Shown here piece by piece: positions 2,152 through 10,702 of a stretch of DNA of 21,051 nucleotides (the first letter of the stretch is position 1; each line of letters begins with the position of its first letter). The translations under genes and the position numbers were made by a program. The notes beneath the pieces are model-generated. The model was not told the origin of the DNA, searched no databases, and saw nothing but the letters and a program-made list of their open reading frames with translations. Source of the DNA: a virus; IMG/VR virus record IMGVR_UViG_3300027806_000182, positions 1 to 21,051 of that record; one strand, 5' to 3'.

Positions 2152-2384
2152 CGCTTGTCCTCCAGCGGCCTGTGCAGTTTGTGTCGCAGCTCCAGAAGCC
2201 TGTATTGCAGTTCAATCACGATCTTCCGCTCGGGTCGGTTGTGTGTCGTGTTCAAATACTCAACAAGCACCTCTTCCATCGCTTTGATGGTGTGATCCAC
2301 CGCCACGTTCCATGAATCGGTAACGAGTTGCTTGGTGATCTGATACGCCGACGAAACGGCGTCATCGGGTGGTTGGTTGTTCAT
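2148..2384 (-). CDS. hypothetical helical protein, 78 aa
   Basis: 78 aa, not recognised. The sequence looks almost wholly helical: residues 10-45 carry hydrophobic residues at a heptad-like spacing, and the C-terminal half is Arg/Lys-rich (RKIVIELQYRLLELRHKLHR). No membrane segment, cysteine motif or catalytic motif is visible. The ATG at 2384 shares ATGA with the preceding gene, and the stop overlaps the exonuclease start in the same way, so it is translated as part of the recombination operon. The larger frame that extends further upstream is rejected as the start because it would run deep into the neighbouring gene. A small accessory or DNA-binding role is possible but unproven. Confidence 0.72.
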   Translation of the reverse strand: MNNQPPDDAVSSAYQITKQLVTDSWNVAVDHTIKAMEEVLVEYLNTTHNRPERKIVIELQYRLLELRHKLHRPLEDKR

Positions 2385-2605
2385 GCTTCCCCCGGTATTT
2401 CGATGATGCGGATGTTGCCGACGCTGCCGCCAGTCTTGGCAAGGGATGTTGCAAATCGTACTGCTTCTTCCGATGATGGAATCGCCGTGGTAACCCAAGG
2501 ACTAGGCTTGTTCCCAAACGGAATAGACATATACGCCACGACCCAAACGGTGGGCATCTTCGGACCATCCACCACCTCAACAACCTTCGCTTTGACAGTT
2601 GCCAT
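2381..2605 (-). CDS. hypothetical protein, 74 aa
   Basis: 74 aa, not recognised. It begins MATVKAKVVEVVDG and alternates predicted beta strands (VWVVAYMSIPFG, IRIIEIPGEA) with one helix (SSEEAVRFATSLAKTG), giving a small alpha/beta fold. No catalytic motif can be named. The ATG at 2605 has a good AGGAG site 7 nt upstream, and that site lies immediately after the tRNA-like element at 2619-2731. This is therefore the first protein gene downstream of that RNA, and its translation could be affected by the fold. The stop overlaps the next start as ATGA. The position suggests a minor replication or recombination accessory protein, which is an inference from context only. Confidence 0.72.
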   Translation of the reverse strand: MATVKAKVVEVVDGPKMPTVWVVAYMSIPFGNKPSPWVTTAIPSSEEAVRFATSLAKTGGSVGNIRIIEIPGEA

Positions 2606-2618
2606 GTTTGCTCCTAAT

Positions 2619-2731
2619 CCTCCGGGCCGGAGTCGAACCGGCTTACTGGGTTTCCCGTCTATTTATGGCGTGCCCACACCTAGCCCAGTTGATCGGCACG
2701 TCTAGCGTGTCGCCGTCCACGCCGCCGGAGG
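2619..2731 (-). ncRNA. tRNA-like RNA element (atypical, 113 nt)
   Basis: Fills almost all of the 132-nt gap between two genes. On the minus strand a 7-nt CCTCCGG (2725-2731) pairs perfectly with CCGGAGG (2619-2625). The 3' half is a textbook T arm: a 5-bp stem (2638-2642 with 2626-2630) around loop TTCGACT, stacked directly on the acceptor-like stem. Two nt inside the 5' strand is a D-arm-like hairpin (GCGTG/CACGC, 2705-2722) whose 8-nt loop contains GG. The middle does not fit a tRNA: instead of a 5-bp/7-nt anticodon arm there is a 5-bp stem (2684-2688 with 2646-2650) holding a nested hairpin (2667-2680). No CCA is encoded. It could be a divergent or dead tRNA, or a tRNA-like regulatory structure. 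I cannot assign an anticodon. Confidence 0.6.
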
Positions 2732-2737
2732 TGTTGA

Positions 2738-3109
2738 CTACCCAATCTTCAACTTGGCGTTGGCCTCGGCGGGCCTAAACCACTTGTCGCCCTCAATGAT
2801 GTGGCCGATTCCCGTGATCTTGGCATCAAACTCATCGCTCTCGCGCTCAACGCGAATGGCCTTGCCGGGTAGTTGGTCCAGCCGTTCAACGCCAGCGGCA
2901 CGCAGCACGCCGACAATGTGTTCTGCGGCGATGTTCGGTTGCGTTGCATGGCGGCCTGCCGCAATGCCCGGTACGCCGCCGAGGACGTATCCCCCGAACC
3001 CCTGCACGCCGCCGTCCTCGTGCTTAACGAATACCCACAGACTGAGAAAGGCGTCTCGGTCAAAGCCGAGGTGTGCCGACGTGATGATGCCGTTTGTGAT
3101 CTTCGCCAT
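2738..3109 (-). CDS. conserved phage protein of unknown function, 123 aa
   Basis: 123 aa. The pattern is familiar from many phage and prophage early regions: MAKITNGIITSAHLGFDR at the start, an HEDGGVQGFGGYVLGG segment (about 31-46), a helical middle (AAEHIVGVLRAAGVERLDQL), then GKAIRVERE and IGHIIEGDKWFRP near the end. In that family the N-terminal beta strands and the QGFGGY motif are the best conserved parts. No function is established that I can name. The ATG at 3109 has an AAAGGA site 6 nt upstream. It is the last protein gene before the tRNA-like element. Family recognition is from memory of the motif pattern, so I am sure of the gene and moderately sure of the family. Confidence 0.85.
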   Translation of the reverse strand: MAKITNGIITSAHLGFDRDAFLSLWVFVKHEDGGVQGFGGYVLGGVPGIAAGRHATQPNIAAEHIVGVLRAAGVERLDQLPGKAIRVERESDEFDAKITGIGHIIEGDKWFRPAEANAKLKIG

Positions 3110-3119
3110 GTGTTTCCTT

Positions 3120-3356
3120 TCAGACTTTGGCGTAACTCACGCCGGTGTAACCACTCTCGAACCCGCGCCGGGGCGACCATGCCCAGGTCAACGCTCGGGC
3201 GACGTGCCACGCCGCGAAACCGCAAAGCACGGTCGGCACCGCCCAGACAATCCCAGACTTGACAGGCTCGGGGGCTTCCACTCCGACGATGTACCCGAGG
3301 CCCACGCCGACCAAGGCGGCGCAGGTGGTGGTGATGTAGCGTTCGCCGGTGGTCAT
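3120..3356 (-). CDS. small two-helix membrane protein, 78 aa
   Basis: 78 aa. Two hydrophobic segments are visible: residues 8-26 (ITTTCAALVGVGLGYIVGV) and about 35-58 (IVWAVPTVLCGFAAWHVAR onward). They are separated by a short acidic turn and followed by a basic, aromatic tail (WSPRRGFESGY). This is the build of a small inner-membrane protein with a cytoplasmic tail. A class II holin has a similar shape, but no endolysin is next to it, so lysis is only a possibility. I chose the ATG at 3356, which shares ATGA with the upstream gene, over a much longer in-frame extension that would read through that gene. Confidence 0.7.
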   Translation of the reverse strand: MTTGERYITTTCAALVGVGLGYIVGVEAPEPVKSGIVWAVPTVLCGFAAWHVARALTWAWSPRRGFESGYTGVSYAKV

Positions 3357-3673
3357 TGGGCACCCCATTGCGCTTTGGCGATGGCGTCGTAGATCATCTT
3401 GGCCGCGTCGCCGACTGCGGTCTTCGTGTTCGTCGGAAGTGAATCCAGTTGGGGAACCATGCCAGTCGCTACAGCAGCCTTGCACGCGGCAAGCAGGTCG
3501 GGCGCGGCGGCGATGAGGCGGGCGTTGGCATCTCTCGCCGCATCGTCTGGGCAATCTGGCAAAACTTCTGCAACCATGTATGTACATTGAGGCTTGTACG
3601 GCGCGACAATGCGTGCGCCACCCATGCGAGTCGGCCCGTCGATACTCCACGGCCCCGGTGTGTGCTTGCTCAT
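3353..3673 (-). CDS. conserved phage protein (HTPGPW / ANARLIAAAPDLL type)
   Basis: 106 aa. It starts MSKHTPGPWSIDGP and carries DANARLIAAAPDLLAACK in the middle (about residues 50-67), two signatures that recur together in small proteins of many temperate and virulent phages. The first part looks beta-rich and the second is helical. The biochemical role is not established as far as I know. The ATG at 3673 is chosen because it shares ATGA with the zinc-ribbon gene upstream and gives the typical family N-terminus; the longer frame reads into that gene. The stop overlaps the membrane-protein start, so the three genes are translationally coupled. Confidence 0.85.
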   Translation of the reverse strand: MSKHTPGPWSIDGPTRMGGARIVAPYKPQCTYMVAEVLPDCPDDAARDANARLIAAAPDLLAACKAAVATGMVPQLDSLPTNTKTAVGDAAKMIYDAIAKAQWGAQ

Positions 3674-6860: not shown

Positions 6861-7804
6861 TAGCCACCACCACCGGGGCCGGGAATCGTGACGGGTAGGA
6901 ACGCGGTCGCGTCGTAGCCGGGCAGACCCGCCGGGCCGTTCTCGTCGTAAACGAACGGGCGAAAGGATCGGAAGTGAGGTTTGGGCTCAAATAACTGCCC
7001 GACCGGGGCCGGACGACGAAGCATCAGCAGCGTGGTAAATGGGGCTCGCACATAATCCCAACTATCGCCCGGAAGCATTGACAACTGAGTTTGCATAGGC
7101 CACGCAAGATCAATTTGTTCCTCTGGGTTTGTCGTTACCTCGTCGCTGGTCGGTAAAGGCTTTGGCAGCGTCTTCACGCCGGGGTCGGTCAACCATGAGT
7201 AGGTCACTTCCATAAGCGAGTTTGTGACCTGTACGACCGAGCCCACGTCGAACTGCGCGTAAATAGCGGTGCCGCCGGGTGTTGATACGCCCGACGTTCC
7301 GCCGACAGTAATCTTGTGAATCTTGCCTTTCTGGTCCGCGACGTAGGCCGCATTGACAAGGTACTCATCCTTGTCCACCCGCACCTTCATCGACCAGCGC
7401 ACGGCGTTCACTTGCACGTTCAGTTTTCGCTCACGCCAGACGTACGAACCGACCGTGACGTTGTTCACCGTGCGGGTGGGCACACGCTCCGCAAAGGGGA
7501 TTTCGGTAGTGCGGGTGACGTTCTCGACACCAACCTCGGGCCGGTACCAATCGTTTGTGTAGATGGCAACCGCCTCGATCAGCGTGCCCGATTGGCTGAC
7601 GGCGTACTGCTCAAGTTTCTGGCCCTCCCATATGCTGTCGTATGCCGGTAGCGAGCTTCCATCGGTGAGGGTGATGTACTCGGGGTTGGTGATGATCTGC
7701 TCGGGCTGGATGTTCCCGAACAGGCGGAACACGCGCACGGCGCGTTTGCGTCCCCAACGGTCGCCGACGAATGGCCCACGGTCGATGTATTCAATGCCGC
7801 CCAT
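6860..7804 (-). CDS. putative distal tail / baseplate protein, 314 aa
   Basis: 314 aa, no confident family. The N-terminus is MGGIEYIDRGPFVGDRWGRK. The body is beta-rich with many Tyr, Trp and Val residues: LIEAVAIYTNDWYRPE, NVTVGSYVWRERKLNVQV, VRWSMKVRVDKDEYLV, AIYAQFDVGSVVQVTNSLMEV. A Pro-rich C-terminal part ends in a short Gly run (GPGGGG). It is the first gene after the tape-measure-like protein, where siphoviruses usually encode the distal tail protein and tail-tip components, so a tail-tip role is the working inference. The ATG at 7804 overlaps the upstream TAA as TAATG. It is longer than most Dit proteins, and I see no Dit hallmark. Confidence 0.72.
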   Translation of the reverse strand: MGGIEYIDRGPFVGDRWGRKRAVRVFRLFGNIQPEQIITNPEYITLTDGSSLPAYDSIWEGQKLEQYAVSQSGTLIEAVAIYTNDWYRPEVGVENVTRTTEIPFAERVPTRTVNNVTVGSYVWRERKLNVQVNAVRWSMKVRVDKDEYLVNAAYVADQKGKIHKITVGGTSGVSTPGGTAIYAQFDVGSVVQVTNSLMEVTYSWLTDPGVKTLPKPLPTSDEVTTNPEEQIDLAWPMQTQLSMLPGDSWDYVRAPFTTLLMLRRPAPVGQLFEPKPHFRSFRPFVYDENGPAGLPGYDATAFLPVTIPGPGGGG

Positions 7805-10070: not shown

Positions 10071-10702
10071 TAGGCGATACCTCCCAGCTTGGAACGCACG
10101 ACGGACACGAACCGCCGAAGCATCGCCCCACGCGCTCGAGCAATGCCCAGCCGCGCCCAAGGCCTCGGCGCGATATGGATCGTCTTTGACGTGAGCAGAA
10201 ACCACGCTTCGCCGCTCTTGGTGCCTCGTGCAAGCCCGCGTTTGACCTTGCCGCCGGTATCCAGAATCACCACCACGCCGCTATTGCTACGGCGGAAGGT
10301 GACAACGCCCATGCCCTTGAGGGCGTTGATGGCCTCGCGGATAGACCCGCCGGACCGGCGAACGAGCGTCTTTGCCTGCGGTATGAGCGGAATGCCCAGC
10401 GCCTTGCCCTTCTTCGGGCTGATTGACGCTCCGTTGTTGAGGTAGCGGAGATACGGCACGTCCGACCCAACCAACGCGAACCCGTCGCCCCTGACGGTGG
10501 CGAACGACGCCCGCGCGATGCCCGTTTGCGAGTTGGGGAAAGCCCCTGGCGATGACGGTGCCCCGCCGTGGTTGCTGCCGAACCCGCGCACGATGGCATC
10601 CTGCAACGCAAGCCCGGACGCGAACAAACCATCGTTGACCGCACCCCGCACGGTGGCGAGAAACTGCTGAGCGTCGATCTTGATGGACACTTCGGCGCTC
10701 AC
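10070..10702 (-). CDS. HK97 gp10-like neck/tail-completion protein
   Basis: 210 aa. The HK97 gp10-type family is seen in an N-terminal helix over an IKIDAQQFLATVRG start, GAPSSPGAFPNSQTG (residues about 47-61), VPYLRYLNNG, and a C-terminal IAPRPWARLGIARARGAMLRR (final helix after a PRPW turn). These proteins help join the head and tail during assembly. A basic insertion (about 105-165, RRSGGSIREAINALKGMGVV onwards) makes it longer than the common 120-150-aa members and looks like an added domain of unknown use. The start is GTG at 10702 overlapping the upstream stop as GTGA. The order connector, head closure, gp10, terminator is the standard siphovirus neck order. Confidence 0.82.
   Translation of the reverse strand: MSAEVSIKIDAQQFLATVRGAVNDGLFASGLALQDAIVRGFGSNHGGAPSSPGAFPNSQTGIARASFATVRGDGFALVGSDVPYLRYLNNGASISPKKGKALGIPLIPQAKTLVRRSGGSIREAINALKGMGVVTFRRSNSGVVVILDTGGKVKRGLARGTKSGEAWFLLTSKTIHIAPRPWARLGIARARGAMLRRFVSVVRSKLGGIA

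Follow-up and report, generated by a model that had tools for sequence, protein, structure and literature searches.

A tRNA-like element with a perfect acceptor stem and T arm and no anticodon arm in an intergenic gap of a virus record

Phage tRNAs evade tRNA-degrading defences, the tRNAs concerned being decoding tRNAs (PMC11555353), and tRNA-dependent lysogeny likewise involves decoding tRNAs (PMC10865867). The gap between gp13 and gp14 of the phiC31-like Streptomyces phages (phiC31, BT1, Vash, Lilbooboo and others) holds a tRNA-like gene, present in 14 records that represent nine distinct phages. The acceptor stem, D arm and T arm of this element are canonical, and the site of the anticodon loop is taken by a conserved internal loop (AAYCCGG/GCAC) and an inner stem closed by GNRA or UUCG tetraloops. 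Its length is 87 nt in phiC31, 86-89 nt in most relatives and approximately 74 nt in BT1, which has a shorter arm. The tRNA model RF00005 matched these elements at 51-54 bits, with a stretch of 24-26 nt replacing the loop. They are mostly unannotated, the sole annotation being tRNA-Gly in Lilbooboo, and the identity assigned by ARAGORN was inconsistent (Gly, Thr, Ala, Arg or Glu). Covariation was evident in eight of the nine phages for the acceptor, the T stem and both the outer and inner stems of the anticodon arm. When six of the sequences were aligned to a structure that we had specified ourselves, 99.3% of cells paired and seven pairs had changed on both sides, compared with a mean of 2.9 after shuffling; slid controls of the same alignment yielded no double-sided pair changes.

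The DNA analysed here, referred to as the window, comprises 21,051 nt of IMG/VR virus record IMGVR_UViG_3300027806_000182 (positions 1 to 21,051), which also encodes RecT, an exonuclease, SSB, terminase, portal and major head proteins. A tRNA-like element of 113 nt runs on the minus strand from 2731 to 2619 and reads, 5' to 3', CCTCCGG, 82 nt, GCCGG-TTCGACT-CCGGC and CCGGAGG, followed by A (Table 1). It occupies a gap of 132 nt (2737-2606) between genes g2738 and g2381, in the same orientation as both, and begins 6 nt after the stop codon of g2738 (2740-2738). The first-pass annotation had placed it correctly, the reading strand being minus, and its description of an otherwise empty gap filled by an element ending beside a ribosome binding site is confirmed by the 132-nt gap and the AGGAG at 2615-2611. 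The bounds of g2738 were set from codon-position composition and the PHROG match, and the ORF at 2749-3363 is not the real gene; the family phrog_30930 has a length of 118 against the 123 aa of g2738, and the gene already stops where the family stops. A search around the element revealed neither a sigma-70-type promoter nor a terminator.

Table 1. Coordinates of the tRNA-like element, its flanking features and the phiC31 copy of the phiC31-type element
Feature	Position	Strand	Remarks
Acceptor stem, 5' strand (CCTCCGG)	2725..2731	-	7/7 pairs with 2619-2625; pairing probability 0.95-1.0; positions 1-7 of the match to model R1
Acceptor stem, 3' strand (CCGGAGG)	2619..2625	-	Followed by an A73-like A at 2618
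T arm (GCCGG-TTCGACT-CCGGC)	2626..2642	-	Canonical T54 T55 C56 R57 A58; G53-C61
D-arm-like hairpin (GCGTG-GACGGCGA-CACGC), weak	2705..2722	-	Pairing probability 0.36; lacks U8 and A14; missed by R1 and RF00005
Long middle, at the site of the tRNA anticodon arm and variable region	2643..2704	-	Two near-equal folds; no tRNA family match
AGGAG, ribosome binding site of g2381	2611..2615	-	A few bases past A73; direct reading
Upstream gene g2738, 123 aa, phrog_30930 (function unknown)	2738..3109	-	E 5e-9; coding-typical codon-position G+C
Downstream gene g2381, 74 aa, no family	2381..2605	-	ATG at 2605
phiC31-type element, phiC31 copy	L197 339-425		Relatives in L200-L207

The two ends of the element are strongly structured. 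All seven acceptor pairs are Watson-Crick, the T arm is stacked directly on the acceptor, and together the acceptor and T stem comprise 12/12 Watson-Crick pairs. In the pairing ensemble the T arm reached a probability of 0.99, and the values for both stems fell only to approximately 0.9 within the mRNA context. A perfect T arm with a TTCRANY loop arose in 7% of simulated windows, and the combination with a perfect acceptor in one of 1500, a rate of approximately 0.0007 per window that becomes non-negligible if many windows are read; for the acceptor of this element to arise within the allowed range, P was approximately 0.004. Across 2.03 Mb of viral loci, a perfect acceptor stood at the true position beside two of the 16 T arms that were not part of an ARAGORN call, compared with a mean of 0.09 in shifted controls, the two being the present element itself and one in contig L171. 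The co-occurrence of acceptor and T arm therefore exceeds chance.

The same does not apply to the remainder of the molecule. A D-arm-like hairpin with GG in its loop does exist, as had been proposed; it has C at position 8 and no A14, and a competing fold is favoured at 0.6 to 0.36. The claim that acceptor, T arm and D-like arm are jointly non-random thus stands for the first two and not for the third. Two folds of the middle lie within 2 kcal/mol of each other. One, with a probability of approximately 0.35, combines the D-like arm with a 6-bp stem (CGUGCC/GGCACG, 2700-2695 with 2674-2669) that encloses a nested hairpin; in the other, at approximately 0.6, the 5' arm is longer and an ACUGGG/CCCAGU arm forms (2689-2684 with 2650-2645). 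When the middle was shuffled between fixed ends, 25% of the shuffles folded as stably or better, so that an intrinsic structure of the middle is not demonstrated. The first-pass annotation put forward a stem with nested hairpin as the fold of this region; it is one of two near-equal solutions, no better than those of shuffled sequence. The accompanying observation that a normal anticodon arm is absent was borne out: the middle contains no 5-bp, 7-nt anticodon arm with U33, and neither ARAGORN nor Rfam called a tRNA.

Searches with established RNA models agreed with this. ARAGORN, run on the whole window with introns allowed, returned no tRNA or tmRNA, and Rfam gave no match to the element at its cut-offs. 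RF00005 did not match the element, despite its scores on the phiC31-type elements, and a plain tRNA fold was accordingly not recovered from a covariance model. The best weak Rfam match, to tRNA-Sec (RF01852), scored 18.4 bits where the cut-off is 47. There was no match to the tmRNA model RF00023, and pair 3-70 is U-A, so that the G3-U70 alanine identity pair is lacking. A decoding tRNA shares with the element the 7-bp acceptor stacked on a 5-bp T arm with a TTCRA loop; in contrast to phage tRNA genes recognised by RF00005, the element has no tRNA-type D arm and no anticodon arm, is 37 nt too long and matches no model. YrlA bacterial Y RNAs (RF02553), of which a sub-threshold match was seen in viral contig L031, also possess a tRNA-like T arm and acceptor, but in YrlA the module is permuted and a loop closes the acceptor, whereas the present element is unpermuted, gave no RF02553 match and contains neither the permuted tRNA module nor the Ro-binding stem.

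The closest resemblance was to the phiC31-type element. A blastn search gave 22 identities over 23 bases, a stretch extending into the acceptor, in the unannotated gp13-gp14 gap of phiC31, BT1 and Vash, with an E value of 2 that is not significant alone. The acceptor differs from that of phiC31 at base pair 1 only, the T stem is identical and the T loop is one base off. Both elements are intergenic, lie on the sense strand and carry extra sequence in place of the anticodon loop. The window element nevertheless lacks the canonical, conserved D arm, the RF00005 match, the conserved internal loop AAYCCGG/GCAC, the inner tetraloop hairpin and the 87-nt length of the phiC31 type. A covariance model built solely from the phiC31-like elements (R1) yielded a single match on the window with exact ends (2731-2618; 25.6 bits, E 7e-5), in which a search of the whole record concurred. 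Only the acceptor and T arm contribute to the score, and the middle gains no support from the model. Since R1 also finds ordinary tRNAs and is near to the general tRNA model, the match indicates tRNA-likeness at both ends and not descent from the phiC31 type. No homologue of the element, or of g2738 or g2381, was found in the phage and viral collections searched by neighbour proteins and DNA patterns.

A similar element was present in contig L080, whose terminase and RecT relate it to the window. Its 98-nt tRNA-like element (6983-7080, plus strand) carries an insert in the anticodon loop, its first base coincides with the final base of the preceding stop codon, and it scored 28.9 bits with RF00005, just below the cut-off of 29.

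Taken together, these data tentatively suggest that the element is an RNA derived from a tRNA and no longer able to decode. A non-decoding tRNA-like element appears to be the best reading, and other phages offer precedents in which the anticodon arm is altered, namely the phiC31 family and L080. The stems beyond chance, the fit to the gap, the R1 match, both parallels and the lack of an integrase in the record and of a bacterial tRNA sharing the 3' end favour it; the failure to find a homologue in the collections searched, a D arm and middle at chance level and the lack of an RF00005 match count against it. The earlier suggestion of a phage tRNA-like regulator or modified tRNA is partly supported: the tRNA-like, non-decoding character is retained, and the role of regulator is hypothetical. 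The acceptor/T-arm half, a coaxial minihelix, would have been retained, with the anticodon arm lost and a working D arm probably lost as well. Such a minihelix is the main feature recognised by RNase P, and that of the element may still be processed by RNase P and 3' enzymes. The element is likely to be transcribed in a minus-strand operon between g2738 and g2381; RNase P would cut ahead of 2731, with trimming at A73 by either a 3' tRNase or an exonuclease. These cleavages would release a folded RNA of approximately 113 nt, together with a g2381 mRNA whose short leader begins just ahead of the ribosome binding site. If there is a selected function, it could be that of a processing signal, a decoy or a stable RNA.

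The main rival is that the element is a decaying tRNA gene in which the D and anticodon part has been damaged by insertion or replacement and the acceptor and T arm have not yet eroded. This is possible, if rather unlikely. It would account for a D arm without conserved bases and a middle no more structured than its shuffles, and tRNAs and odd tRNAs do occur in phages of this breadth. Decay would, however, have to have left both remaining stems perfect and both ends tightly fitted between a stop codon and a ribosome binding site.

Alternatively, the element may be an intergenic hairpin that resembles a T arm by accident and found a 7-bp partner upstream. Besides the simulated rate given above, an open frame of 43 codons (2643-2774, minus strand) that spans the middle has coding-like codon use, at the 98.7th percentile of off-frame windows. 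This frame has neither a homologue nor a ribosome binding site, g2738 ends where its family ends, the entire element lies within non-coding sequence, and the shifted controls fall well short of the two cases observed. The sequence and position of the element both argue against chance, which is unlikely.

It is considerably less probable that the element is a phage attachment site (attP) consisting of the 3' end of a tRNA gene of the host, for which a host tRNA gene with CCTCCGG...GCCGGTTCGACTCCGGCCCGGAGGA would fit. Fragments of tRNA 3' ends of the attP kind are known to give rise to false tRNA calls (PMC9897764). Partnerless T arms without an acceptor, resembling tRNA 3' halves, lie approximately 1 kb or less from a tyrosine integrase (PF00589) in several further contigs of phages (G001, G023, G026 and G048-G052) and look like attP sites. 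Like the element, such sites are phage-borne and have an orphan T arm of canonical form with a 3' acceptor strand, but they differ in having the 3' half of an anticodon stem and a nearby integrase and in lacking the 5' acceptor strand, which the element possesses. No PF00589 or PF07508 integrase was found in the 21-kb record, which may be a fragment. The 21-nt 3' end of the element occurred in no tRNA of 84,980 genomes, among which the true host may be absent, and its only two matches there were both in what reads as coding DNA. The lack of an integrase in the record and of any tRNA match to the 3' end therefore make an attP site improbable.

A tRNA with a short anticodon-loop intron, the removal of which would yield a decoding tRNA, is scarcely credible: on a short crop, ARAGORN proposed Pro-UGG with an intron of 19 nt, but this call was gone on the whole window, the fold lacks U33, its anticodon stem is mismatched and its variable region is 24 nt long, and no bacterial enzyme is known to remove such introns.

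If the non-decoding reading is extended, phages may repeatedly make tRNA mimics in which the acceptor and T arm are kept and a structured insert takes the place of the anticodon arm, the phiC31 family, L080 and the window being separate examples of one functional class; we regard this generalisation as unlikely as it stands. Were it true, the class could serve, for example, as a decoy against tRNA-cutting defences or as an mRNA processing module, and for the window element a decoy role is only an idea. Should the elements be functional, phage tRNA annotation would both miss and mislabel RNAs that are tRNA-like to processing enzymes and unable to decode. The phiC31 family offers a well-known laboratory phage system in which such elements can be tested directly.

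Further odd tRNA-like elements were encountered in the viral contigs, and those of L094, L097, L099 and L171 shared no common middle with the element. The L171 element (10433-10518, plus strand) is 85 nt long with a perfect acceptor and T arm, received no call from ARAGORN at default settings and showed a weak tmRNA match of 18.4 bits; its contig has no tyrosine integrase. In L097 (220-326, minus strand), an element of 107 nt combines canonical D and T arms with an anticodon region enlarged by approximately 30 nt, and the sole tyrosine integrase match is distant. A YrlA-like Y RNA lies beside a tRNA-Asp in viral contig L031 (6412-6516, plus strand; 34.6 bits against an Rfam cut-off of 69), and in L084 (4649-4728, minus strand) a tRNA-Met is followed approximately 30 nt on by a second, orphan T arm.
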